Below are positions 21,897 to 34,497 of a DNA stretch of 64,000 bases, piece after piece (within the stretch, counting starts at the first letter, position 1; every line of letters begins with the position of its first letter). A program made the translations under genes and the position numbers. Location: contig NZ_JAJMLZ010000001.1 in assembly GCF_022227765.1 (NCBI RefSeq), forward strand, positions 310,001 to 374,000. Reading direction: 5' to 3'. The DNA is from Ectothiorhodospira shaposhnikovii (lineage in GTDB: Bacteria; Pseudomonadota; Gammaproteobacteria; Ectothiorhodospirales; Ectothiorhodospiraceae). The notes beneath the pieces were generated by a model. It did no database searches. It had not been told where the DNA came from and was given only the letters and a program-made list of their open reading frames with translations.

Positions 21897-22217
21897 TCAG
21901 CCGCGAGCCACGTAGGCGGTGCACCAGCCGTTGGCGTTCACCAGCTTGTTGGGGAACACGGCGCAGCCGCCCCACTCGGTGGCGCTGGGGTCGGTGTACA
22001 GCAGGCAGTTGATGCACTTCTGACCCGCGGCGTGAGAGGGGTGGTCCACGCTGGCGCCGTCATGCTTGTAGTTCAGGGCCAGGGCCTCGGGGGAGTTCTC
22101 ATCCAGGCGCTCGGCGGCCACGGCGGTGCTGATGCCCATGCTCACGACGGGGATGGCGGCCAGGCCGGCGGCACCGAACTTCAGGAAGCTTCTGCGGCTG
22201 AGGTCTTGCTTCTTCAT
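21897..22217 (-). CDS. hip: High-potential iron-sulfur protein (HiPIP)
   Basis: Periplasmic [4Fe-4S] electron carrier. The 106-residue precursor has a Tat signal (RRSFLKF at residues 8-14, cut near AVAA at 35). The mature part has the four cluster cysteines at 68, 71, 85 and 99 in the HiPIP pattern CxxC...C...C (KCINCLLY, GGCAVFP, NGWCTAY). HiPIPs carry electrons from the bc1 complex to photosynthetic reaction centres in purple bacteria or to oxidases in chemotrophs; which applies here cannot be read from the window. A clear AGGAGA precedes the ATG. Monocistronic, with strong hairpins downstream. Confidence 0.97.
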   Translation of the reverse strand: MKKQDLSRRSFLKFGAAGLAAIPVVSMGISTAVAAERLDENSPEALALNYKHDGASVDHPSHAAGQKCINCLLYTDPSATEWGGCAVFPNKLVNANGWCTAYVARG

Positions 22218-22304
22218 TATGGTCTTCTCCTAACGTCTCGCGATGTTTACATCATGGGGCGCAGCCGCGGGTACATGGCCCGATCCTGGTCTGTGCCTCA
22301 GGAG

Positions 22305-22326
22305 GTGGCGGAAATCGATCCGCCAC
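22305..22326. repeat. Dyad upstream of the HiPIP gene
   Basis: GTGGCGGA (22305-22312) and TCCGCCAC (22319-22326) form a perfect 8-bp inverted repeat with a 6-nt spacer, 88 bp upstream of the HiPIP start. It could be an operator or a leader hairpin of the HiPIP mRNA. The gene-free stretch 22218-22586 otherwise holds an AT-rich patch near 22370-22390 and the REP pair listed separately. Confidence 0.45.
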
Positions 22327-22478
22327 TGAAGATCCCGACAAGAATGTGTGTCGCCATTCCTGATGGGCTTACAAATATAACGGAATATGACGGCCGGTAG
22401 TATCCAACATTGTGATGCCAAGGGCTAGTCCGGAAGCTTGGTGTGTGTCAAAAAAAACGTGGATGTGCCGGATCGGTC

Positions 22479-22544
22479 ATTCCCGCGAAAGCGGGAATCC
22501 AGGGGATGGAGTGAAAGCGTCTGGGCTCCCGCTTTCGCGGGAGC
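22479..22544. repeat. REP-like palindrome pair (inverted)
   Basis: ATTCCCGC-gaaa-GCGGGAAT (22479-22498) and GCTCCCGC-tttc-GCGGGAGC (22525-22544) are two copies of one palindrome family in opposite orientation, the arrangement of a bacterial interspersed mosaic element. They lie just downstream of the DUF3833 gene. The same core recurs at 46153 and 55013-55138. Confidence 0.85.
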
Positions 22545-22586
22545 GACGGTGCAGTGCAGAGAGAGCGACGGCACGGTTTTTCCATT

Positions 22587-23078
22587 TCATGCAGACTCCG
22601 GTTCCCTGTCCTGCTTTTGGAAGAACAGCGTCACTTCCCCCAGGCGGATGCCGAACTTGCTCATCACGGCCCGGTTCACCAGCACCCCGTCCTCGTGCAT
22701 GAACATCCAGTCATCGAAATTGACCTTCACCACCCGGGTACCGATGGGCAGGTTCAGCACGTAACGGAAGTTGAAGGCCTGACCGTAAAGCTTGCCCACG
22801 GCCACCCCGTCCACATCGGCGGCACGGCCTTCATAGGTGTGTTCGTCGAGGCGTCTCAGGCGCCAGACCCGTCGGTCCTCTTCACCGTCCAGGTAGACGA
22901 AATCCTCTTCCAGCACCAGTTCGCCGTCTTCCACGTATCCCCGGATATCCACCGTGAACTGGCGCCTGACCTTGCCGAAACGATCCTGGAACAGTCCCCA
23001 GGCCCGCACGTCGCCGGTGAAATAGGCCTCCAGATCCAGGGCCGGTGTGGTGTTCGCATAGTCTTCGGGTTTCATCAT
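22587..23078 (-). CDS. DUF3833 family protein
   Basis: A 163-residue protein starting MMKPEDYANTTPALDLEAYF, placed at the ATG that overlaps the stop of the cfa-like gene and follows GGAGG. Conserved DUF3833 features are LDLEAYFTGDVRAWGLFQDRFGKV (here split by the signature FxGxVxAWGxxQDRxGxV) and the C-terminal NFDDWMFMHEDGVLVNR. Many homologues carry a lipoprotein signal; this one does not. The family is consistently linked to Cfa-like methyltransferase operons and is thought to act on lipid-like ligands, function unknown. Last gene of the four-gene operon. Confidence 0.88.
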   Translation of the reverse strand: MMKPEDYANTTPALDLEAYFTGDVRAWGLFQDRFGKVRRQFTVDIRGYVEDGELVLEEDFVYLDGEEDRRVWRLRRLDEHTYEGRAADVDGVAVGKLYGQAFNFRYVLNLPIGTRVVKVNFDDWMFMHEDGVLVNRAVMSKFGIRLGEVTLFFQKQDREPESA

Positions 23079-24307
23079 TTCGCCTCCAGCACGGCGTGCA
23101 TCAGGTCCGTGTTGCGGGAGCGGAATCCTGCTTCGCAATAGGCCAGATAGAAACGCCAGGTGCGCAGGAATCGCTGGTCATAACCGCCCAGACTCAGGAT
23201 GGCCGGTGCCTGCTCGCACACCCGCTGGTACCAGTGGTGCAGGGTGTCCGCATAGTCCTGGCCGAAGAAGGCGGTTTCCCTGATCTTCAACCCCGCCTCG
23301 GTGGCGTGTTGTTCAAAGGCCGGTACCGAGGGCAGCATGCCTCCCGGGAAGATGTAGAGCTGAATGAAGTCCGCATGGGTGCGGTAGTAGTCAAAGGCCT
23401 TGACGTCGATGGTGATGACCTGAACGGCGGCACGGCCGCCGGGACGCAGACATTGCCGCACGATCCGGAACCAGGTGGGCCACCACCGTTCTCCCACGGC
23501 CTCGAACATCTCGATGGAGACCACGTGGTCGAACTGCTCTTTCAGGTCGCGGTAGTCCTGCAGTCGCAGTTCCACCCGATCCGACAGTCCGGCGGCCTTG
23601 ATGCGTCGGCGGGCGTAGTCCAGTTGCTCCCGGGACAGGGTGATGCCGGTCACCCGGTAGCCCTGGCGGGCCGCATGTTCGGCAAAGCCGCCCCAGCCGC
23701 AACCGATCTCCAGGATATGCGCACCGGGCGCGGCCTCCAGGCGTTCCAGCAGCCGGGCGTATTTGCGTGTCTGTGCCGTCTCCAGGGATTCCTCCGGCTG
23801 CTCGAACACGGCCGCGGAATAGGTCATGGTGGGGTCCAGCCATTGTTGGTAGAAGTCATTGCCCAGGTCGTAATGAAAGGCGATGTTGCGGCGACTGCCG
23901 GGACGGCTGTTGCCCCGCAGGCGATGGCGCAGGCTGTCCCACAGGTGGGCCGGCCTTGAACCGTTCACCAGATGGGGAATGTGGGGTTGGTTCACCGCGC
24001 CCATGTTGAGCAGGGCGGGCAGATCGGGGCTGTCCCAGTCACCCACCATGTAGCCTTCACCGAATCCCACCAGCCCTCGGGTGAGCAGGCGCCGTACCAG
24101 CGCGAAGGGGCGGTGGATGCGGATTTCTCCGCTGCCGCCGGGATGCCGGCCCTCGATGGTCCAGCGATGGCCATCCGGCGTCTCGATGGTGAGATCCCCC
24201 TGATGCAGGTGCCGAAGATGGCGCAGCAGCAGACGCAGGGCCAGGGACGGGGCGCGGGAGGCGAGGGTGCTGGTGCTGCCTTGGGTGGGGGTCTGTTCCA
24301 GGGACAT
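23075..24307 (-). CDS. Cyclopropane-fatty-acid synthase-family methyltransferase
   Basis: SAM-dependent methyltransferase of 410 residues acting on unsaturated phospholipid acyl chains. The core has HYDLGNDFYQQWLDPTMTYS, the SAM motif ILEIGCGWGGFAEHAA and YRVTGITLSREQL, all Cfa hallmarks; an N-terminal lipid-binding region of about 110 residues precedes. In this operon type (FAD oxidoreductase, DUF1365, Cfa-like, DUF3833) the enzyme is distinct from housekeeping Cfa. Related enzymes in Rhodobacter and Pseudomonas make cyclopropane or methyl-branched/furan fatty acids under photo-oxidative stress. The exact product here is inference. Confidence 0.9.
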   Translation of the reverse strand: MSLEQTPTQGSTSTLASRAPSLALRLLLRHLRHLHQGDLTIETPDGHRWTIEGRHPGGSGEIRIHRPFALVRRLLTRGLVGFGEGYMVGDWDSPDLPALLNMGAVNQPHIPHLVNGSRPAHLWDSLRHRLRGNSRPGSRRNIAFHYDLGNDFYQQWLDPTMTYSAAVFEQPEESLETAQTRKYARLLERLEAAPGAHILEIGCGWGGFAEHAARQGYRVTGITLSREQLDYARRRIKAAGLSDRVELRLQDYRDLKEQFDHVVSIEMFEAVGERWWPTWFRIVRQCLRPGGRAAVQVITIDVKAFDYYRTHADFIQLYIFPGGMLPSVPAFEQHATEAGLKIRETAFFGQDYADTLHHWYQRVCEQAPAILSLGGYDQRFLRTWRFYLAYCEAGFRSRNTDLMHAVLEAK

Positions 24308-24322
24308 CGGTGTTTCTCCTCT

Positions 24323-25072
24323 TCAGGACGGCGTCGGCTTGCTGTAGTACTGTCCACCTTTCCACCAGATCTTCAGGGCATGCCAGTGGATGGCGGCAAT
24401 GACCTTGAGGGTCATGAAGGGAACGGCGACCGTCGCCCTGAGCAGTTCACCGTCGGTGAGGGGACGGGCGTGGCCGGTCTGAGCCGCGGACAGCATCAGT
24501 CGGGAATCCTGGTATTCGTGGATCAGGACATTCAATGCCTCATCGGGCTCCGACAGCCGGAACTGATAGCGGGCGTCCATCTCGATGAAGGGGGAGACGT
24601 AGAACAGCTTCTCCTGTGAGGCGCGCACCGGCCATGTCATGGGGGCACCGTCGGCGTGCAGGAGATAGTGATGGCAGTCTCCCAGGGTGTTGCTGACCTC
24701 GCAGATGATGGCCCGCAGACTGCCGTCCCGGTGCCGGCAGTACCAGAGGCTCAGCGGGTTGAAGGTGTATCCCAGCACTCTGGGAAAACACAGTAGCTGC
24801 ACCTGTCCCCCTTCCAGGTCGATCCCTGCCCGGCCCAGGCAGGCATCCACCCAGGGTCGCCAGGGCGACCCGTCACGGGGGCCGTGATCGCGAACATTCA
24901 GGCTCAGCAGGTTGAAGCGGTTGACCGAAAGCAGGCGCAGGGATCGGTCCAGATCATCCAGCCGGTCCACGTCCACCAACAGGCTGAAGACCCGGTAGAT
25001 GAAGCGATATTCCACCGGGAACAGCCGGCGGTGCATGACCCGGGTGCGGTAGAGGCGGTGAGGTTGCGTCAT
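24323..25072 (-). CDS. DUF1365 family protein
   Basis: A 249-residue protein; the start MTQPHRLYRTRVMHRRLFPV at 25072 overlaps the stop of the preceding oxidoreductase by ATGA. Family hallmarks visible are RVMHRRLFPVEYRFIY, FNPLSLWYCRH and EVSNTLGDCHHYLL (about residues 120-160). The family is of unknown biochemistry but occurs almost only between the FAD-dependent oxidoreductase and Cfa-like methyltransferase, so a role in the same lipid modification is likely. Confidence 0.9.
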   Translation of the reverse strand: MTQPHRLYRTRVMHRRLFPVEYRFIYRVFSLLVDVDRLDDLDRSLRLLSVNRFNLLSLNVRDHGPRDGSPWRPWVDACLGRAGIDLEGGQVQLLCFPRVLGYTFNPLSLWYCRHRDGSLRAIICEVSNTLGDCHHYLLHADGAPMTWPVRASQEKLFYVSPFIEMDARYQFRLSEPDEALNVLIHEYQDSRLMLSAAQTGHARPLTDGELLRATVAVPFMTLKVIAAIHWHALKIWWKGGQYYSKPTPS

Positions 25073-26412
25073 ACCTCGGATGCCTCGACCCGGGGCAGGG
25101 TGCGAACCGGCAGGGCATTTTCGGCCTGGGGCGCCACGGTCCAGGGTGGATTGACACCGAGCTGAGCGGCCACCTGCAGGGCGGAGCGCAGTCCGTCTTC
25201 GTGGAAGCCGTAGCCGGTCCAGGCACCACAGAACCACAGTCGGTCACGGCCCTGGATCGTGGGCAGGATCCGCTGGGCGTCCATGGCCCCCTGATCGAAG
25301 ACCGGGTGGTGATAGATGATCTCCTGTATCACCTTCTCCGGCAGTGGTTCTTCCAGAGGATTGAGGCTGACCAGGTATTCCTCCGGCTCGTCCAGGGCCT
25401 GGAGGCGATTCATCCAGTAGGTGACGGAAACCTCGTTGGCCGGGGCATCGGTCAGACGGTGACGGGCCAGGTAGTTCCAGGAAGACCAGACCTTGCGCAG
25501 CTTCGGCATCAGGCGGGTGTCGGTGTGCAGGATGGTCCGGTTGGGCTGATACTGGAAGGCCTTCAGGATCCGGGTTTCGTCCTCGGAAGGCGCTTCCAGC
25601 ATGTCCAGGGTTTCGTCGGCATGGCAGCCGAACACGACCTGATCGAAAAAGGCCTCCGAGCCATCCTCGATGATCAGGCGGATCCGGGCTTCCTGACGCT
25701 GCACCGCCACCACCCGGCGGGCCACATGGACATTCTCCGGCAGGGCGGCAAGCATCTTTCTCACGTATTCCCGACTGCCGCCGGTGACGGTGTGCCACTG
25801 GGGGCGGTTGCTCAGGTCCAGCAGGCCGTGATTGGCAAAGAAGTTCAGGAAGGACAGCAGCGGAAAGTCCAGCATCTTGTGGGTGGGGCAGGACCAGATG
25901 GCCGCGGCCATGGGCAGCAGGTAGTCATCCCGGAAGCCGGGTCCGTAGCCCTCATTGAGCAGATAGCCCCCCAGGGTCATGTCCGTGCTGGTGCCGGTTT
26001 CCAGCAGGCGCTTGCCGGCCCGGTTGAAGCGCATGATATCCGCCAGCATCCGAAGGAAGCGCGGACTGGTGAGGTTGCGGCGCTGGGCAAACAGGGTATT
26101 GAGGTCCGATCCTGCATATTCCAGGCGCCCATTGCCCACCGAGGCGGAGAAGGACATGTCGGTGGGCTGGCTGGTGATGCCAAGGTGCTGGAACAGGGCG
26201 GTGAGGTGCGGATAGTTGCGGTGGTTGAACACCATGAAGCCCGTGTCCACGCCGCGGGGGCCGTTGCGTCCCGGTATGTCCACCGTGTTCGTGTGTCCGC
26301 CGATGTAATCATTCCTTTCGAACAGGGTGACGTCATAGTGACGGGACAGCAGCCAGGCGGCGGCCAGTCCGGAGATGCCTGCACCAACGACGGCGATACG
26401 TTCACGGGCCAT
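25069..26412 (-). CDS. FAD/NAD(P)-binding amine-oxidase-like oxidoreductase of the cfa operon
   Basis: Flavoprotein of 447 residues with the dinucleotide fold VGAGISGLAAAWLLSRHYDV at residues 8-27 and the following acidic FERNDYIGGHTNT. It resembles phytoene-desaturase/amine-oxidase enzymes and lacks a signal peptide. It is the first gene of the lipid operon. In Rhodobacter a flavin-dependent desaturase acts with a Cfa-like methyltransferase on membrane fatty acids, so a similar acyl-chain oxidation is plausible (inference). It is preceded by a good -35/-10 promoter overlapped by four TnTACA-like repeats. GAGGA lies about 9 bp before the ATG. Confidence 0.9.
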   Translation of the reverse strand: MARERIAVVGAGISGLAAAWLLSRHYDVTLFERNDYIGGHTNTVDIPGRNGPRGVDTGFMVFNHRNYPHLTALFQHLGITSQPTDMSFSASVGNGRLEYAGSDLNTLFAQRRNLTSPRFLRMLADIMRFNRAGKRLLETGTSTDMTLGGYLLNEGYGPGFRDDYLLPMAAAIWSCPTHKMLDFPLLSFLNFFANHGLLDLSNRPQWHTVTGGSREYVRKMLAALPENVHVARRVVAVQRQEARIRLIIEDGSEAFFDQVVFGCHADETLDMLEAPSEDETRILKAFQYQPNRTILHTDTRLMPKLRKVWSSWNYLARHRLTDAPANEVSVTYWMNRLQALDEPEEYLVSLNPLEEPLPEKVIQEIIYHHPVFDQGAMDAQRILPTIQGRDRLWFCGAWTGYGFHEDGLRSALQVAAQLGVNPPWTVAPQAENALPVRTLPRVEASEV

Positions 26413-26441
26413 GTGCTCATTTCCTCAGATCTGGAATTGTT

Positions 26442-26481
26442 CTTATACATTAACTGTACAAGGATTGTAAAATGCTGTACA
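26442..26481 (-). promoter_or_regulatory. CarH/LitR-like operator overlapping the lipid-operon promoter
   Basis: On the minus strand hexamers TGTACA (26481-26476), TTTACA (26471-26466), TGTACA (26460-26455) and TGTATA (26449-26444) follow each other at 10, 11 and 11 bp. CarH, a MerR-type repressor, is known to bind consecutive 11-bp repeats containing TnTACA. The second hexamer doubles as a -35 (TTTACA) and, after 18 bp, TATAAG (plus 26442-26447) is a -10, placing the transcript start about 20 bp before the FAD oxidoreductase gene. The rest of the 345-bp gene-free stretch up to folE (26482-26757) shows no second repeat array and no convincing ORF. Confidence 0.75.
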
Positions 26482-26757
26482 AGCTAACTCGGGATACGTT
26501 TGCACGGCCTGCGTGCCGCCCTCGGCCGGGCCTGACAGAGTGGTTCGACACCCGATGCCGCGTCAACGTTCCTGATCCGTGCCGACGATACCGATTGCCG
26601 TGCACGCCCCATTGGCGAGCATAGCTGCTAGAACACTGGAAGCCAGCATCAGCAAGGCCGGGAAAGCCGGAACACCTGTGAAGATGGTTTGAAAAAGGCA
26701 ACGCACCACTTCCTCCGGGACGGTGGTCATTTCATGAATCATCAGGAGATCAAGACC

Positions 26758-27375
26758 ATGAAGCCAGTTGCGCAGATTGCCGGAGACGGCACCATGAAAG
26801 CCCCGCTCAAGCTGATGTCGGCCGAGGCCCTGGCGGACCATTATCGGAAGATGCTGGTGGGTCTGGGTGAGGACCCGGAACGGGAGGGCCTCAAGGGCAC
26901 GCCCTTGCGGGCCGCCAAGGCCATGCAGTACCTGACCCGGGGTTACCATGAGTCACTGGAAGAGTTGGTCAACGGCGCCCTGTTCGCTTCCAGCAGCGAC
27001 GAGATGGTGCTGGTGAAGGACATTGAGCTGTATTCCCTGTGTGAGCATCACCTGCTGCCCATCATCGGCAAGTGCCACGTGGCCTATCTGCCCGACGGCA
27101 AGGTGCTGGGGCTATCCAAGGTGGCCCGCATCGTGGACATGTTCGCCCGTCGGTTGCAGATTCAGGAAAGCATGACCCGGGAGATCGCCCAGGCCATCAT
27201 GGACGTGACCGGTGCCAAGGGCGTGGCCGTGGTGGCGGAGGCCCGTCACATGTGCATGATGATGCGGGGGGTGGAGAAGCAGAACTCCACCATGGTGACT
27301 TCGGTGATGCTGGGCACCTTCCGGGAGGATGCCCGTACCCGGTCGGAGTTCATGGACCTGATCCGTCGCGGCTGA
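26758..27375 (+). CDS. folE: GTP cyclohydrolase I (FolE type)
   Basis: Converts GTP to 7,8-dihydroneopterin triphosphate, the entry to folate and pterins. At 205 residues it is family-typical. Zn ligands and active site are in [20 protein letters not shown] (Cys, His) and [16 protein letters not shown] (second Cys). The start at 26758 is chosen for the AGGAG about 9 bp upstream; an in-frame ATG at 26734 is less well supported. Placed next to a photolyase and LitR-like regulator, it probably is a stress-induced paralogue supplying pterin or the methenyl-tetrahydrofolate antenna of photolyase (inference). Confidence 0.95.
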
Positions 27376-27415
27376 GAGTGACGGGTTCACGTGGGAGAGA
27401 GGCGTGACGGGGAAT

Positions 27416-28873
27416 TCAGGGCGTCCCCGATGCTTCGGACCGCGAGGCGCCCTTGAGCTGCTCCCATGCCGCCAGGGCCGCCTTGCGACTTTCCCTCAGG
27501 TCGACCCGCGGGCGCGGATACTCCCTTGGCACTAGGCCCGCGGGGGCGGTCCAGGGAGCCTGTAGATACCGATCCGGCAGAGGTTTGAGCTCCGGTACCC
27601 AGCGCCGGATGTACTCACCCCGGCCATCAAAGCGCTCTCCCTGCAGCACCGGGTTGAACACCCGGAAGTAGGGGGCAGCGTCAGCCCCGCAACCGGCGGT
27701 CCATTGCCAGCCCAGGGTATTGGATGCCAGGTCGGCGTCCACCAGGGTGTCCCAGAACCAGCGTGCCCCCGTCTGCCAGGGAATGCGCAGGTTCTTGACC
27801 AGTAGCGAGGCGACGATCATCCGTACCCGGTTGTGCATCCAGCCCGTGTGCCAGAGCTCCCGCATCCCGGCGTCGACCAAGGGGATGCCGGTGCGACCCC
27901 GTCGCCAGGCTTCCAGATCCGCCGCGTAGTCCCGGGCATCACGCCAGGGAAAATCCGCAAATCGTTCATCCAGCGGTTGTTCGGGTGTGTGGGGGAAATG
28001 AAACAGCAGGTGGAAGGCGAATTCCCGCCAGCCGATCTCCCGCATGAAGGCCTCCAGCGAGGCGCCGGCGGCGGCCCCCGCTCCCTGCGCCTGCAGGCGC
28101 CGGCAGGCCCGGATCAGCTGTCTTGGGCCGATTTCGCCGAAATGGAGATGGGGCGACATGCGAGAGGTGCCCGGTTGTCCCGGCAGGTCCCGGTCGGTCT
28201 TGTAGGTCAGGACGGCGCCCGCCAGAAAATGTTCCAGTGCCCGGTGGGCACCGTCCTCGCCCGGCTGCCAGCAGGCAGCCATGCCCTGGTCCCAGGGAAT
28301 GCGGGGCAGCAGATCAAAGAATTCCAGGTGATCGCCGTCGGGCCAGCATGTCGGCGCCGTGATGGATTCCGGTGTGGTTTCCACGTCATCGGGGAGCCCC
28401 GTGGCGCAGCAGGCCTTCCAGAAGGGGGTGAACACCCGGTAGGGTTCGCCGCTCTTGTTGCTGACCGTCCAGGGTTCGAACAGCAGGGCGCTGTTGAAGC
28501 TCTCCGCCACCAGTCCCCGGTCCTTCAGGGCCGCCTTGATCCGGCGATCCCGTTCGATCAGAGCGGGCTCATACACCCGGTTCCAGAGTACCTGCCCGGC
28601 CCCCGTCTCGTCGACCAGCCGCAGGAGCGTTTCCAGGCTGGCTCCCCGGCGCAGGATCAGCCGTGAGCCCGCTGCCTCCAGGGCGCGGGAGAAGGCGACC
28701 AGACTGTGATGCAGCCACCAGCGGGAGGCGGCCCCGGGGGACCAGGGGGCTTCTTCCTCCGGTGCGTGGATGTAGACAGGGATCACCGGCAGCCCTGTCC
28801 GCAGGGCGTGGGCCAGGGCCGGATTGTCCGCCAGGCGCAGGTCGCGGCGCAGCCACAGCAGGATGGGTTTCAT
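27416..28873 (-). CDS. phr: Deoxyribodipyrimidine photolyase (class I CPD type)
   Basis: Light-dependent DNA repair flavoenzyme that splits cyclobutane pyrimidine dimers. The 485-residue protein begins MKPILLWLRRDLRLADNPAL, the start overlapping the regulator stop by four bases (ATGA). An N-terminal alpha/beta antenna domain is followed by the FAD-binding helical domain with SRMSPHLHFGEIG, GWREFAFHLLFHFP, WMHNRVRMIVASLLVKNL and LASNTLGWQWTAGCG. Length and motifs fit the folate (MTHF)-type class I enzymes like E. coli PhrB, which fits the adjacent folE. Cotranscribed with the MerR/LitR-like gene. Confidence 0.95.
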   Translation of the reverse strand: MKPILLWLRRDLRLADNPALAHALRTGLPVIPVYIHAPEEEAPWSPGAASRWWLHHSLVAFSRALEAAGSRLILRRGASLETLLRLVDETGAGQVLWNRVYEPALIERDRRIKAALKDRGLVAESFNSALLFEPWTVSNKSGEPYRVFTPFWKACCATGLPDDVETTPESITAPTCWPDGDHLEFFDLLPRIPWDQGMAACWQPGEDGAHRALEHFLAGAVLTYKTDRDLPGQPGTSRMSPHLHFGEIGPRQLIRACRRLQAQGAGAAAGASLEAFMREIGWREFAFHLLFHFPHTPEQPLDERFADFPWRDARDYAADLEAWRRGRTGIPLVDAGMRELWHTGWMHNRVRMIVASLLVKNLRIPWQTGARWFWDTLVDADLASNTLGWQWTAGCGADAAPYFRVFNPVLQGERFDGRGEYIRRWVPELKPLPDRYLQAPWTAPAGLVPREYPRPRVDLRESRKAALAAWEQLKGASRSEASGTP

Positions 28874-29844
28874 GGGGATTCCATGGGGGAGTTCGATGGC
28901 TGGAGACGACTGCCGATGTGTTCGGCGGCCGCTTGGGGATCCGGGGGCAGCAGGTGAATGCCTCGGCCATGCCAGGCCGACGGGAGGTGTCCGTTGTCTG
29001 TCAGGGCCAGGAAGACCGGGATGCTCAGGGTGGTGGCCCACGGTTCAAGCTGCGCGGCCCGAGGGTGCTGTCCGCACAGGACCATGCCCGCCGGTGCGAC
29101 CTGGCGGGATAGGGATTCGATGGCCGCCAGAGAGACCGGGCCCGAGAGCCGCGTGACCCGCAGCCCACGGATGGCGAGCAGCAGAGACAGCATGAGCAAT
29201 TCCAGGTGATCGGCTTCATGGGGCAGGGGGGCAATGCCCAGCAAGGGTCCGGAGCCGTGGTGCAACTCATGACGCAGTCGGGAACACAGGGCTTGGCAGG
29301 CCCAGGCCTGGAAAAATCGGCTTTCCGCCTCTGCCTCGGCGCCTTGAGCCGTGTGTTGTGCCAGGGCCTGGTGCAACGGGTGGATCAGGCGGCATATCAC
29401 CTGTTGAGGGGGGAACAGGGACATGGCATCGCCATAGACCTTTTCCAGTCTCCGGGTGCTGAATTGCCGTACTGCGTGTTCCATCCGATAGCGGTAGTCC
29501 CGCCAGGCATCCGCCGTGATCCGGGGCGAGGCCGTCTGTGGTGTCACGACAGGGGAGGGTGTTGATGCGGTGGCCGGGGACAGGTCCTGTTCCAGTACAC
29601 CACGAATCCGGCCGATGGAAATCCCCTGTTCCAGAAGGGCTAGTATCTGTTGGATGCGTTCGATGTCCTGGATGCTGTAAAGCCGGTGTCCCTTGGGTGT
29701 CCGCTGGGGCGAGATCAGCCCATGGCGTCGCTCCCATGCCCTCAGTGTCACCGCGTTGACACCGGTGACCGAAGACACGGTGCGGATGGGGTAGAGCCCG
29801 TCTTCGTCCGAAGCGGGAATGGGGAGAGCCGGAGCAGGATTCAT
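28870..29844 (-). CDS. MerR-family regulator, LitR/CarH-like
   Basis: A 324-residue regulator with a MerR winged helix at residues 17-85 (YPIRTVSSVTGVNAVTLRAW, then RRTPKGHRLYS-like HRLYS). A region of about 230 residues follows, resembling the cobalamin-binding half of CarH/LitR. Within it, the helical bundle lacks the Wx9EH cap motif of B12-sensing CarH (the EH position reads ES), and the Co-ligand region reads HEADHLELLMLSLLLAIRG, keeping a histidine but not the following glycine. It therefore resembles class II LitR proteins that do not bind adenosylcobalamin. Likely a repressor of its own phr operon and neighbours. No clear Shine-Dalgarno; the operator ends 10 bp before the ATG. Confidence 0.85.
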   Translation of the reverse strand: MNPAPALPIPASDEDGLYPIRTVSSVTGVNAVTLRAWERRHGLISPQRTPKGHRLYSIQDIERIQQILALLEQGISIGRIRGVLEQDLSPATASTPSPVVTPQTASPRITADAWRDYRYRMEHAVRQFSTRRLEKVYGDAMSLFPPQQVICRLIHPLHQALAQHTAQGAEAEAESRFFQAWACQALCSRLRHELHHGSGPLLGIAPLPHEADHLELLMLSLLLAIRGLRVTRLSGPVSLAAIESLSRQVAPAGMVLCGQHPRAAQLEPWATTLSIPVFLALTDNGHLPSAWHGRGIHLLPPDPQAAAEHIGSRLQPSNSPMESP

Positions 29845-29853
29845 GAGCAGGAT

Positions 29854-29881
29854 TGTACAATCGTTGTATAATATTTGTGTA
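29854..29881. promoter_or_regulatory. Second CarH/LitR-like operator between regulator and SDR gene
   Basis: TGTACA (29854-29859), TGTATA (29865-29870) and TGTGTA (29876-29881) lie at exact 11-bp steps; on the minus strand they read TACACA, TATACA, TGTACA, two of which match TnTACA. The site fills the short divergent region between the MerR/LitR-like gene and the SDR gene and contains a TATAAT (29867-29872) that could serve the SDR promoter. It suggests autoregulation plus control of the divergent pair. Confidence 0.7.
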
Positions 29882-29910
29882 GACCTTTGCGGGACAGGAG
29901 GAAGACGGTA

Positions 29911-30690
29911 ATGAATCAGGTACAAACCGTAACGACCCCACCGCTGGTCTGGCTGGTGGGGGCCAGCACCGGCATCGGCAAGGCACTGGCCCTGCGTCTG
30001 GCCGCCACCGGTCGGCGCGTGGCGGTGACCTCCCGCAGCCGCGAGCGGTTGCAGGCGCTGGCGGAGCAATCACCGGTACCCGGTGCCATTGAGGTCTTCC
30101 CGGGAGACGTCACCGATACCCGGGGACTGGCCGACGTGGCCGCGCAGATCGAGTCCCGGATGGGTCCCATCGGGACGGCCATCTTCAACGCCGGCGACTA
30201 TGAGCCCATGGGCCTGGAGGACTTCGATCCCGACCTGTTCCGGCGCATCATGGAGGTCAACTATCTGGGCGTGGTGAACGGACTGGCGGCGGTGATGCCC
30301 TTCATGCTGTCACGGGGCGAGGGGCGGATCCTGGTGACCGCCAGCCTGGCCGGCTATCGGGGCTTGCCCAGGGCCGCGCCCTATGGGGCCTCCAAGGCGG
30401 CGGTGATCAACATGGCCGAGTCCCTGCAACCGGAACTGGCCATGCGGGGGGTGCAGCTGCGGGTGATCAATCCCGGGTTCGTGAAGACCCCCATGACCGA
30501 CAAGAATCGCTTCCACATGCCCTTTCTCATGGAGTCGGACGCGGCCGTGGACGCCATCATGAAGGGGCTGGAGGGCAAGGGTTTCGAAATCAGTTTCCCT
30601 CGCCCCTTTGCCCTGATCATGAAAAGCCTCAGAATATTGCCCCATCGCCTCTTTCTGGCGCTGACCCGACGCATGGTGGACGGCCGATGA
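29911..30690 (+). CDS. Short-chain dehydrogenase/reductase
   Basis: NAD(P)-dependent oxidoreductase of 259 residues. The cofactor motif GASTGIGKALAL lies near residues 16-27, FNAGDY is the NAG equivalent, and the catalytic Ser/Tyr/Lys are in TASLAG...PYGASKAA. AGGAGG precedes the ATG at 29911 with 9-bp spacing. It is divergent from the LitR-like gene across the TnTACA array and overlaps the next gene by ATGA. SDRs with an NTF2-like partner are recurrent members of the Cfa/DUF1365 neighbourhoods; substrate unknown. Confidence 0.9.
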   Translation: MNQVQTVTTPPLVWLVGASTGIGKALALRLAATGRRVAVTSRSRERLQALAEQSPVPGAIEVFPGDVTDTRGLADVAAQIESRMGPIGTAIFNAGDYEPMGLEDFDPDLFRRIMEVNYLGVVNGLAAVMPFMLSRGEGRILVTASLAGYRGLPRAAPYGASKAAVINMAESLQPELAMRGVQLRVINPGFVKTPMTDKNRFHMPFLMESDAAVDAIMKGLEGKGFEISFPRPFALIMKSLRILPHRLFLALTRRMVDGR

Positions 30691-31127
30691 GCGAATCAAT
30701 GGATGCATGGGCGCGGCGGTATGCCGAATTTTTCTCTCAGCTCAGGGAGCCGGATCTGGCCCGGCTGGACGAGTTCTTCACGGCGGATGCCCGCTTCAAG
30801 GACCCCTTCAACGACGTGACGGGGCTGGAGCAGATTGCCGCGGTGTTCCGGCACATGTTCCGTCAGTGTCCGGCCCCGCGATTCTATGTGCATTGCTGGG
30901 CCGTCCAGGGCAATACGGCCTTTTTCCACTGGCGTTTCATGGACCGGGACGAGGGTGCCGACGGCCGGCTACATCTGGACGTGGACGGCATCAGCCGGGT
31001 GTTGTTCAACGACGAGGGCAAGGTCTTCAGCCATATCGACTACTGGGACCCGGCCGAATACCTGTATGACCAGATCCCCCTGCTGGGCGGCCTGCTCCGG
31101 TTTGTGCGGCGCCGGATCGGGAGTTGA
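30687..31127 (+). CDS. NTF2-like/SnoaL-fold protein
   Basis: A 146-residue protein of the nuclear-transport-factor-2-like fold: an N-terminal helix (YAEFFSQL), LDEFFTADARFKDPFNDVTG (about residues 25-44), and the beta-sheet strands with AFFHWRFMD and VLFNDEGKVFSHIDYWDPAEYLY. Such proteins are small isomerases/hydratases or ligand-binding partners. Translationally coupled to the SDR gene (ATGA), so probably acts on the same substrate. Confidence 0.88.
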   Translation: MSESMDAWARRYAEFFSQLREPDLARLDEFFTADARFKDPFNDVTGLEQIAAVFRHMFRQCPAPRFYVHCWAVQGNTAFFHWRFMDRDEGADGRLHLDVDGISRVLFNDEGKVFSHIDYWDPAEYLYDQIPLLGGLLRFVRRRIGS

Positions 31128-31210
31128 GCCGGCGGGCGAGGAATCTTTGGCTTGAATCCGGGTCCAAATCGGCTATACCCTGCAAACGACTCAAGCTTGA
31201 GGCTGGTATC

Positions 31211-31522
31211 ATGTCCGACCCCATTCGTTCCCAAGCCCTTTCCGGTGACCGCCCCTTTCTGTTGGGTGGTCTGGTGATGCTGACCGGGCTGGTGCTGACC
31301 CTGCAGACGCCCGTGTCACAGGACGCCATGGCCGATCTGTTCAGCGGCATGGAGAGCCCCACCCTGGCCCGGACCCTGGAGATGTGGCCCGGCAACCCGC
31401 CCCCCTGGATGGACGGCGATCAGTTCATGACCGAAGAGGTGGAAGAGTTGCCGATGCTGCTCGGGGCCGATCGCCAGTCCCATGACGGCGCCGCGGCCTT
31501 GCGGGAGCGCCCCGTCAGATAG
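31211..31522 (+). CDS. Small single-pass membrane protein, unknown
   Basis: A 103-residue frame beginning MSDPIRSQALSGDRPFLLGG with a GAGG about 9 bp upstream. One hydrophobic helix at about residues 16-36 is followed by an acidic soluble tail (TEEVEELPMLLGADR). I recognise no family. It follows the SDR/NTF2 pair by 83 bp and may or may not belong to that unit. Confidence 0.5.
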   Translation: MSDPIRSQALSGDRPFLLGGLVMLTGLVLTLQTPVSQDAMADLFSGMESPTLARTLEMWPGNPPPWMDGDQFMTEEVEELPMLLGADRQSHDGAAALRERPVR

Positions 31523-31564
31523 CCGCCAATCCCGGGCCGTGACGGCCGCTCGCGCGGGTGGTCA

Positions 31565-33988
31565 TCACGGCTCGGCGGAAAGGGATGATCCCGCTTGCGG
31601 GCCAAGCAGTTTTTCACACTGCTCCGGGGGGAGTGGCCGGCCGTAGAGGTATCCCTGTGCCTGCTGACATCCCCTCTCCTTCAACCAGGCAGCCTGTGCC
31701 GGGGTCTCGACGCCCTCCGCCACGCAGATCAGGGACAGGCTCCTGGCCATGGCCAGCACCGCCTCGGCAACGGTTTCCGCTTCTTCTCCGGCCCCGGCTT
31801 CCAGATCCTGTACAAAACGCTTGTCAAGTTTCAGGGCGTCCACCGGGAAACGTCTCAGATAGGCCAGGGAAGAATAACCGGTACCGAAGTCATCCACGGA
31901 CAGTGAAATACCCAGTTCCACCAGCTGCCGCAGCACGGAGACCGCGGTGTCCATGTCTTGCATCAGGCCGCTTTCGGTCAGTTCCAGTTCCAGGGCTTCG
32001 GCGGGCAGTCCCGACTGTGTCAGCGCCTGTTTCACCCTTTCCAGCAGGTCCGCCTGGTAGACCTGCACGGTGGACAGGTTGACCGCCATGGTCAGTGTCG
32101 GATGACCGTGTTCCCGCCAGTGCTGAGCCTGACGACACGCTTCCCTCAGTACGTAATCTCCGATTTCAATGATGGTACCGTTAGCCTCGGCCCTGGGGAT
32201 GAACATGTCCGGGGGGACGTTTCCCCGATCAGGGTGATGCCATCGCAACAGCGCTTCCACACTGACGACAAGACCCGTTTGCAGGTCAATCTTGGGTTGG
32301 TAGTGCAGGGTGAACTGCCCTTCCTTCAGTCCTTTTTCCAGGTCATGGTCCAGTTGCTTGAGCGCGGTGTGATTGGCCAGCATCACCGGTTCATACGAGC
32401 GGAACTGCCGCCGGTGGTCGGATTTGGCATGCTCCAGCGCGAAGCCGGCCAGGGCCAGCAGTTCAGTGGCGTGTTCGGGGTAGGGCGGGCAGGTGATCAG
32501 GCCGGCCTTGCCGCTTGTGTCGATCCGTCTTTGCCCCACCTTCAAGGGGGCGTCCAGCACTTTAAGAATCCGCTCCGCGAAGGCTGCTGAATCCCAGGAA
32601 CCCGGTTGGTGTTCGGTGAACAGGGCGAACTGGTCACCATAGATCCGGGCCAGCAGTATGTCGGGGGGGTTGGTGACCCGGATGTTGTCGGTCACCTGCA
32701 TCAGTACCTGATCCGCCACCGACTCGCCCCAGATCCGGTTCACGTCCGCAAATCCCTTGAGGTCCAGCAGGCAAAGGGTGCATGGGGTGTGGGTCGACCT
32801 GGCGGATTGCAGTCTTTGCTCCAGCAGTTCGGTGAAGTAACGTCGATTGGGCAGGTCCGTCAAGGGGTCATGGCGGGCCATGTGAGCGATCCGGTCCATG
32901 GATGCCTGATGCATCCTGTATCGGTGGACGAGATCCCGGGCAATGGCGACCGAGAGCCCCAGGCTCAGACCCAGCAACAACAAAATCGTGCTCAGCAGCA
33001 CGATGACCTCATGCTGGGCCCGTTTCCGGGCGTTCCCGGCCTGGGTCATGATTTCCCCGGTCAGGGTTATCTCAAGCTCCAGCAGGGCATTGATCCGTTC
33101 GGTGGTGACATTGAACCATCGAACGGCGCTCAGGTATTCGGGTTTGGCCGCCACGCCGTAATTGAGGATGGCCGCGCGCGCGGCCAGCAATTCCTGATTG
33201 GCCGGTTGGGCCTCGATGGTGACGAGGCGGTCGGCCAGATGGGGTGGTGCGAGCGCCATGAACTGGCCGCGATGATTGCCCTGAATGGCAACCGCACTGA
33301 CATAATGCTGGAACACCAGTGAATCCGGTTCCCGTGCGCTCAGCCAGGCGCTGCCCAATGCCCGTTCAAGACCTGAATACTCCTTGAGGAGGAGCAATGG
33401 CCGGTAGGCCGTGATGAGTTTTCGGATATCCGCGTTGGGCAGTGTCTCGGGGATGTGGGTGGCGATCAGGATCGTCGCCTCCACCAGGCGGTTGTAAAGG
33501 AGCAGGGCCTCGACAGGCTCCAAACCGAGGTGATCCACCTCGACGCGGTGGTTTTCCAGGTGATCCAGATCGATCAGCAGCCTTCCCATCAGTTGCTGAA
33601 GGACGGGGTCTTCGATATCCAGGGCTTCTCTTGCCAGGGGCATGAAGCGCGCCATGCCGGCATCCGTGCTCCGGCGGGCTTCTTCCAGAATGATCTGGAA
33701 ATCGTTGTCTCGGGCGCTCAGAAAACCCACGGAACTGCCCCGTTCCGCCTGCAGCGCGTGGATCAGTCGCTTGCTCTCCAGGGCGAGACCGGCGACAGCC
33801 AGGCCCTCGGATACATCATGGCTGAACTGTTGCCGGTCAAAGAGTGCCATCCCGGCGATCACCATGAAGGCGATGATGGGGGCGCCGATGGCCAGGCTGA
33901 TGCGGGGGCCAAGTCGATCCATGAGCCCTCCGGAGGGGGGTGATCCACTGATGCCGACAGTATCCTGCGTCGTTGTCCGAGTGTCCAT
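31565..33988 (-). CDS. NIT-domain GGDEF/EAL protein (probable c-di-GMP phosphodiesterase)
   Basis: Membrane sensor of 807 residues. TM1 at about 29-50, a periplasmic nitrate/nitrite-sensing (NIT) domain whose hallmark LIHALQAERGSSVGFLS is at residues 75-91, TM2 near 333-352, then GGDEF (about 375-530) and EAL (about 545-800). The GGDEF signature is degenerate (YGDQF), so cyclase activity is unlikely. The EAL domain keeps EALLRW, ELTES, DDFGTGYSSL, KLDK and AEGVET, consistent with active phosphodiesterase. It ends a tight minus-strand series (11-14 bp gaps). The NIT domain suggests nitrate or nitrite lowers c-di-GMP, possibly related to the nrfAH genes 23 kb away (inference). Confidence 0.88.
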   Translation of the reverse strand: MDTRTTTQDTVGISGSPPSGGLMDRLGPRISLAIGAPIIAFMVIAGMALFDRQQFSHDVSEGLAVAGLALESKRLIHALQAERGSSVGFLSARDNDFQIILEEARRSTDAGMARFMPLAREALDIEDPVLQQLMGRLLIDLDHLENHRVEVDHLGLEPVEALLLYNRLVEATILIATHIPETLPNADIRKLITAYRPLLLLKEYSGLERALGSAWLSAREPDSLVFQHYVSAVAIQGNHRGQFMALAPPHLADRLVTIEAQPANQELLAARAAILNYGVAAKPEYLSAVRWFNVTTERINALLELEITLTGEIMTQAGNARKRAQHEVIVLLSTILLLLGLSLGLSVAIARDLVHRYRMHQASMDRIAHMARHDPLTDLPNRRYFTELLEQRLQSARSTHTPCTLCLLDLKGFADVNRIWGESVADQVLMQVTDNIRVTNPPDILLARIYGDQFALFTEHQPGSWDSAAFAERILKVLDAPLKVGQRRIDTSGKAGLITCPPYPEHATELLALAGFALEHAKSDHRRQFRSYEPVMLANHTALKQLDHDLEKGLKEGQFTLHYQPKIDLQTGLVVSVEALLRWHHPDRGNVPPDMFIPRAEANGTIIEIGDYVLREACRQAQHWREHGHPTLTMAVNLSTVQVYQADLLERVKQALTQSGLPAEALELELTESGLMQDMDTAVSVLRQLVELGISLSVDDFGTGYSSLAYLRRFPVDALKLDKRFVQDLEAGAGEEAETVAEAVLAMARSLSLICVAEGVETPAQAAWLKERGCQQAQGYLYGRPLPPEQCEKLLGPQAGSSLSAEP

Positions 33989-33999
33989 ACCGACCCCGC

Positions 34000-34497
34000 T
34001 TAGAACGCCAGCGCCTCCCGAACGATCTCGTCCAGCAGGGTATCCACCGCTTCCAGGGCCTCCCGGGATTGCGCGTCACCCGGCAGGGTGGGGCGCCGGT
34101 AGGCCAGGTGGATGGTGCCCGGTGCATCCGCCAACTCGTACACGCTGATGACGTAGGGGCAGAAGACGATGTGGTGAGGTTCGGCCTCCATCATGCGCCG
34201 CGACAGCACGGCACTGCAGAACTCCAGGGCCTCGGCCTGGATGAAAATCGCTTCCCCGCCGATGTCCGCTCCGGTGCGGGAGAGCATGGCGCCGATATGG
34301 GCCACATTGTTGATGACGATGCCGCGGTCGATGATGGCCATCTCCAGGGCTTCCCGGTACAGGGCATAGTCGCCCTCGATGCTATAGACCTTCAGGTGTT
34401 CATTCACGATCCTCGGCTCCACGGCCTGGACGGGCAGGCCCAGGGTCAGGCAGCCCAGCAGGACGAGGCACAGGGCACGGACGGACGTCGGCATCAT
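34000..34497 (-). CDS. Exported DUF302 family protein
   Basis: A 165-residue precursor with a signal peptide (residues 1-25, ending PVQA). The DUF302 domain follows, with the typical block FCSAVLSRRMMEAEPHHIVF and CPYVISVYELADAPGTIHLAYRRP (signature ISVYELADxPGxxxxxYRRP) at about 95-140. Function of the family is not established; members bind small ligands or act in the periplasm. GGAG lies 9 bp upstream of the start. Between the NlpC/P60 and NIT-EAL genes with short gaps. Confidence 0.88.
   Translation of the reverse strand: MMPTSVRALCLVLLGCLTLGLPVQAVEPRIVNEHLKVYSIEGDYALYREALEMAIIDRGIVINNVAHIGAMLSRTGADIGGEAIFIQAEALEFCSAVLSRRMMEAEPHHIVFCPYVISVYELADAPGTIHLAYRRPTLPGDAQSREALEAVDTLLDEIVREALAF

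Follow-up and report, generated by a model that had tools for sequence, protein, structure and literature searches.

A conserved array of 11-bp repeats as the predicted operator of a B12-less LitR regulator in Ectothiorhodospira

Ectothiorhodospira are phototrophic purple bacteria. The stretch of DNA analysed here (the window, 64,000 nt) contains a gene cluster in which a MerR-type regulator of the LitR/CarH family (litR) is followed by a photolyase gene (phr), while a short-chain dehydrogenase (SDR) gene and a gene for a SnoaL-like protein diverge from it across the array of repeats under study (Table 1). Beyond phr lie folE and, oppositely directed across a second array, a unit headed by an amine oxidase-like gene, at the far end of which (amine oxidase/cyclopropane-fatty-acid-synthase-like/DUF3833) adjoins a gene for a high-potential iron-sulfur protein with a Tat-signal-like start (21897-22217). 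The Shine-Dalgarno sequence of the SDR gene was found by script in five of seven loci and by eye in the other two, there before an alternative start. An Rfam scan of positions 22000-34000 found no family.

Table 1. Features around the litR array (window positions; predicted elements are marked as such)
Feature	Position	Strand	Basis
LitR operator (predicted): TACACA 29881-29876, TATACA 29870-29865, TGTACA 29859-29854 on the litR sense strand	29854..29881	-	three 11-bp direct repeats, sequence scans and comparison
litR promoter (predicted): TACACA-N18-TACAAT, -35 in the first repeat, -10 overlapping the last; start expected at or next to the ATG	29852..29881	-	consensus scan
litR, 324-aa MerR-type regulator (LitR/CarH family) with replaced B12-motif residues	28870..29844	-	Pfam, PDB sequence neighbours, predicted fold, motif columns
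phr, DNA photolyase, 4-nt overlap with the end of litR	27416..28873	-	
SDR -10 (predicted), TATAAT within the middle repeat; a good -35 was not seen, nor did the scan call the promoter	29867..29872	+	
SDR Shine-Dalgarno, AGGAGG	29896..29901	+	
SDR, short-chain dehydrogenase	29911..30690	+	
SnoaL-like protein (NTF2 of the original prediction), 4-nt overlap with SDR	30687..31127	+	
folE, GTP cyclohydrolase I, on the other side of the second array from the amine-oxidase unit and divergent from it	26758..27375	+	
Second array: TGTACA, TTTACA, TGTACA, TGTATA on the amine-oxidase sense strand, steps 10, 11, 11	26444..26481	-	
FAD-dependent amine oxidase-like protein	25069..26412	-	
DUF1365 protein	24323..25072	-	
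Cyclopropane-fatty-acid-synthase-like methyltransferase	23075..24307	-	
DUF3833 protein, start provisional	22587..23138	-	

Read on the forward strand, the array consists of TGTACA (29854-29859), TGTATA (29865-29870) and TGTGTA (29876-29881) at steps of exactly 11 bp, with a TATAAT (29867-29872) overlapping the middle hexamer and a gap of 9 nt to the regulator ATG (29844). The three phased hexamers and the TATAAT overlap are as originally predicted, and the claim that such periodicity is unlikely by chance is borne out as well. The pattern TGTANA-N5-TGTANA, with up to one mismatch, had seven matches in the window against 0.20 expected, all of them inside the two arrays, and none of 100 shuffles reached seven. 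Across the whole genome, exact hexamer pairs at 11 bp were confined to the two arrays (three placements), and a strict triple of TNNACA at 11-bp steps had a single match in 3,340,068 bases, namely the window array, against none for the control. One-mismatch pairs numbered 15 forward and 15 reverse, arrays counted, versus 9 and 14 for a reversed-pattern control, and since these totals are close to the control the weak pairs carry no meaning. A wider regulon was considered and rejected, exact pairs being limited to the two arrays, one-mismatch pairs lying near the control level and the one N12-spaced site standing before an apparently YefM-like gene (see below).

The array is also conserved within the order. 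We searched 47 genomes, of which 37 contain litR (a match below 1e-25), and compared 30 loci from these litR genomes, the window's own locus among them and the remaining seven outside the comparison. Counting as array hexamers those with at least four of six bases matching TGTACA (the loose score), all 30 loci have an 11-bp phased array next to the start of the regulator gene, with three hexamers in 22 and two in eight; the conservation between orthologous loci on which the original prediction was staked extends to every locus examined. The closest named relative of the window regulator is that of Ectothiorhodospira shaposhnikovii (77%).

The only Pfam domain in the regulator is the N-terminal MerR DNA-binding domain (MerR_1, 4e-17), through which the nearest PDB sequences, Thermus LitR and CarH, were matched. 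A structure model built from 29 aligned relatives (pLDDT 87, pTM 0.68) resembled both full-length CarH (Foldseek 4.7e-14) and the B12 domain of CarH (Z 18.5-19.4, rmsd 2.4-2.9); similar scores were obtained for other B12-domain proteins, photocobilins reaching Z 20.3, which is expected for one shared fold. The C-terminal region is predicted to adopt a CarH-like fold, with a helical bundle and a Rossmann domain. B12-binding LitRs carry a lower-ligand histidine motif. The B12 motif, described as Wx9EH (PMC8156234), is carried by seven of the 29 aligned LitRs, six of which agree on the columns W, E, H and H, and at these four columns the window LitR has T, S, R and D. There was no B12-binding_2 match for the window LitR at E values up to 1, against 17 of 29 relatives with one. 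The protein is a LitR/CarH-family member that probably lacks light sensing through B12, and such sensing, weighed as a candidate, is unlikely from the motif columns despite the kept fold. We have not assigned it to class II either, because the consensus T(G/A)TACA-N12-TGTA(C/T)A does not describe the window array, where the spacing is N5, and because the B12-binding_2 match is missing. In a quick unrooted tree of 107 regulators, which does not include the named PplR/PmlR proteins, the rows from Ectothiorhodospira do not fall within the Pseudomonas clades.

The operators of CarH are described as 11-bp direct repeats of nnnnTnnACAn that overlap the -35 and/or the -10, with three tandem repeats in Thermus and four in Bacillus megaterium (PMC9304148, PMC8156234). 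All three repeats of the window array, read on the litR sense strand, fit the TnnACA core of this unit at the level of sequence. Because the array is unique in the genome as a triple, is kept beside litR and fits the CarH-family consensus, it is very probably the operator of its own LitR, and autorepression of litR through it appears only slightly less certain. LitR would bind the three repeats and, once bound, cover both the litR promoter (first and last repeats) and the SDR -10 (middle repeat), with joint repression of litR, phr, SDR and the SnoaL gene as the expected result.

The second array would do likewise for the amine-oxidase unit and perhaps for folE, although joint control of folE with that unit might be envisaged only as a possibility. 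Its last hexamer overlaps TATAAG (26447-26442), a -10-like box. All six relatives inspected have this array before their amine-oxidase gene, three of them with the TTTACA repeat. Two points of the original prediction had to be revised here, since the second array is not unlinked but part of the same cluster, at 3.4 kb from the first, and its periodicity is not identical, the forward steps being 11, 11 and 10 bp rather than exactly 11-bp phased. The proposal of autoregulation plus joint control of both divergent units holds as the best reading, drawn from the conservation, the operator type of the family and the persistence of the second array in all six relatives. Among these six the distance is 21 bp between the outer hexamers and 11 bp between the last two. 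This 21-bp step (10+11) from first to third hexamer (26444-26481; L056, L057, L063, L199, L200, L201) gives a phasing unlike that of the litR array, and 21 bp is also the second commonest hexamer spacing in 45 non-Pseudomonas loci.

Derepression would then come from light via a partner protein, not from B12. A candidate partner would be a short LOV protein of the Pseudomonas type, acting as a blue-light anti-repressor in the way described for PmSB-LOV on the LitR PmlR2 of P. mendocina (PMC9758184). Two short LOV proteins are encoded in the genome, as seen in a PAS family search; the LOV pattern GRNCRF has no match in the genome because the two read DCRF and HNCRF. The gene of the first (G000:C33:186508-186987, minus strand, 159 aa, photoactive-cysteine motif DCRFLQ) lies on a different contig from litR, flanked by genes read as FNR/CRP-like and tsaB-like. 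Its product matches 3sw1, which we take to be PpSB1-LOV, at E 3.5e-54, and its LYQDCRFLQ-type relatives stand near litR in many Pseudomonas loci. The second (L198:5988-6440, on G000:C35, 150 aa, HNCRFLQ) is more distant from the Pseudomonas LOVs, and a close relative of it occurs also in G003, a genome without litR. A search around both LOV genes revealed no operator. Light control of the window LitR through LOV is plausible, and the first LOV, by analogy, has about an even chance of being the partner. A natural LOV/LitR pair for tests is offered by a Thiothrix record (L108:9445-10001), in which an 11-bp phased array separates litR from a short LOV gene located upstream and encoded on the other strand.

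The main competing reading, to which we give somewhat less than an even chance, keeps binding and repression by LitR and replaces the Pseudomonas-type LOV by another signal, be it oxidative stress, another LOV or a ligand of the C-terminal domain. It draws on five genomes of the same genus (G001, G004, G005, G006, G009) with litR and the array and without a Pseudomonas-type LOV, of which G001, G004 and G009 carry another short LOV and G005 and G006 have only matches in frames of at least 435 aa. A Vibrio cholerae MerR-type regulator beside phr, proposed to respond to reactive oxygen (PMC5241685), points the same way. Against this, litR and the Pseudomonas-type LOV (presence defined as E below 1e-55 in the 47 genomes of the order) tend to occur together, the LOV being found in 32 of 37 litR genomes versus four of ten without litR (Fisher 0.006, relatedness uncorrected) and, among genomes at least 90% complete, in 28 of 33 versus one of five (Fisher 0.008, relatedness likewise uncorrected). 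The presence of a photolyase within the predicted regulated set also favours a light signal.

The predicted litR promoter is part of the same short region. TACACA-N18-TACAAT has 9 of 12 matches to the promoter consensus, in a scan that returned two sites in 3.7 kb against 0.5 expected. A -10-like box, [TC][GA]TA[CT]A[ACG]T, overlaps the last repeat in 30 of 30 loci of the order, and the consensus scan independently picks the same box as this comparison. The litR ATG follows its end by 6 nt in 20 loci and by 7 nt in 10, a constant distance across bases that vary among the 30 loci, and the box itself is weak in some of them (TACAGT, TACACT). No Shine-Dalgarno-like motif was seen at a usable distance before litR in any of the 30, window included; a GGAG that ends one base before the ATG in L039 and L041 was judged too close to serve. 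This is not unique to litR, since phr is without one in four of seven loci. These features point to a litR mRNA that is likely leaderless, and litR would be transcribed as such in the proposed mechanism. The original prediction had noted a regulator without a clear ribosome-binding site, in agreement with our comparison, and had suggested that the operator may overlap the translation start, for which a leaderless mRNA is the better explanation.

It is also conceivable, though unlikely, that the operator is correctly recognised and litR is not leaderless, transcription beginning upstream and translation proceeding from a weak or coupled start. The open frame does extend upstream of the ATG in many loci, the window included. 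Such a start is hard to reconcile with a box-to-ATG distance held at 6-7 nt in all 30 loci while the intervening bases vary, and with five loci (L038, L045, L048, L051, L053) that have an in-frame stop one codon before the ATG, so that translation cannot begin further up in them. Leaderless mRNAs are known for the MerR-type repressor CvkR (PMC9938897) and reported for the MarR-type CrtR (PMC5401885); our literature search, to which subscription journals were mostly closed, found nothing on Ectothiorhodospira LitR or on leaderless CarH/LitR mRNA, the two terms occurring in PMC8582858 only within unrelated references. In L100 and L120, records titled Burkholderiales and Betaproteobacteria whose regulators have an intact B12 motif, 8-9 nt likewise separate the end of an array hexamer from the litR ATG, and the leaderless design may, from these two, be wider than the order.

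The spacing of the repeats was compared across LitR relatives. Using exact hexamers, 25 of 25 close pairs in 29 loci of the order are 11 bp apart, and the same distance is the commonest in 45 other loci (41 pairs, the next distance having 10), five of which (L056, L057, L063, L082, L127) come from order-locus genomes or look identical, the two sets thus overlapping. By contrast, 18 bp is the commonest in 35 Pseudomonas/Stutzerimonas loci, with 37 pairs against 12 for the next distance and two at 11 bp. A looser scan keeps this contrast with more background (Pseudomonas 45 pairs at 18 bp and 15 at 11 bp; others 52 at 11 bp and 12 at 18 bp). That the array binds another regulator, or is only a promoter feature with TGTACA-like words arising from -10 boxes, and stands beside litR incidentally, is very improbable. 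TGTACA does occur at sites of other regulators, such as the one TGTAYA-N12-TGTAYA site of the genome (see below), but neither this dominance of 11 bp nor the fit of the repeats to the LitR/CarH-family consensus next to litR itself would then be expected.

The regulator tree, unrooted, from a short search and with some long branches, holds 107 of 110 loci, L040, L081 and L096 being left out for an unusable protein. Labelled by exact hexamers only, 48 loci are 11, 20 are 18, one is both and 38 are none, the last class including L044, L045, L048 and L051, each with an array by the loose score. The 20 loci labelled 18 all group within a single clade (SH-aLRT 99), which has 21 Pseudomonas/Stutzerimonas rows, and one change on this tree accounts for the 11/18 label. 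Among 22 B12-motif regulators, 14 are labelled 11, seven none and one both; a LOV-linked Pseudomonas-type clade of 15 rows has two labelled 11 and 13 none. The 11 informative Pseudomonas pairs at 18 bp in the looser scan are inverted in six cases, everted in three and direct in two, and as most hexamers are symmetric and orientations mixed, our claim is limited to spacing. The LOV-linked PmlR2 of P. mendocina was footprinted at N12 sites (PMC9758184), and therefore the LitR acting at a locus is not necessarily revealed by the spacing there.

Compared with CarH, the class I LitR of Thermus thermophilus and Bacillus megaterium, the window system shares the MerR head, the CarH fold (predicted here), the tandem 11-bp TnnACA repeats and an operator placed over promoter elements; it differs in the replaced B12 residues, which make direct B12 light sensing unlikely, and in its putative targets, photolyase and membrane-lipid-type enzymes where CarH regulates carotenoid genes. 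The class II LitRs PmlR2/PplR1 of Pseudomonas, as far as they are described in PMC9758184, are likewise B12-less. Both systems have a short LOV of one type encoded in the genome, and their gene sets overlap (phr, SDR, FAD oxidoreductase, fatty-acid-type methyltransferase and folE). The operators of PmlR2/PplR1 follow the N12 consensus, unlike the 11-bp phased one of the window, where the LOV gene is moreover unlinked to litR and the regulator has no B12-binding_2 match. CarA of Myxococcus xanthus is B12-independent and shares the 11-bp-repeat operator with CarH (PMC8156234, PMC9304148), although its B12 motif is canonical and it works with an SH3-like antirepressor, CarS (PMC8156234), neither of which is indicated for the window system. 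CvkR resembles the window LitR in being a MerR-type repressor, in having a gene that diverges from it and in its leaderless mRNA, which is supported by experiment for CvkR and predicted for litR; it differs as the regulator of a CRISPR-associated transposon with a 15-nt inverted-repeat site (PMC9938897).

The array apparently belongs to an established type of light-response repressor operator, the less ordinary parts being the promoter-embedded, apparently leaderless design and the 11-bp spacing in a B12-less LitR. Put together, and as a whole rather doubtful, the most complete picture would be a single unit of about 40 bp in which the operator of LitR serves at the same time as core promoter for a leaderless litR mRNA (last repeat as -10, first as -35), back to back with the SDR promoter. 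The B12-less LitRs of this group would have kept the CarH-type 11-bp repeats, switched by an unlinked short LOV, and one Pseudomonas lineage would have moved to 18-bp spacing, operator geometry changing within one family. A light-response repressor system studied for the most part in non-phototrophic bacteria would thereby extend to a phototrophic purple-bacterial genus. Natural 11-bp and 18-bp operators in one family bear on how a MerR-type domain reads repeat geometry without B12-driven assembly, and the apparent fusion of an operator with a leaderless promoter makes a conserved, testable case.

The sole TGTAYA-N12-TGTAYA site of the genome (L207:1501-1524; G000:C37:224396-224419) lies before a small gene, presumably YefM-like, which is followed by a second small gene. 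It is probably a toxin-antitoxin promoter unrelated to LitR.
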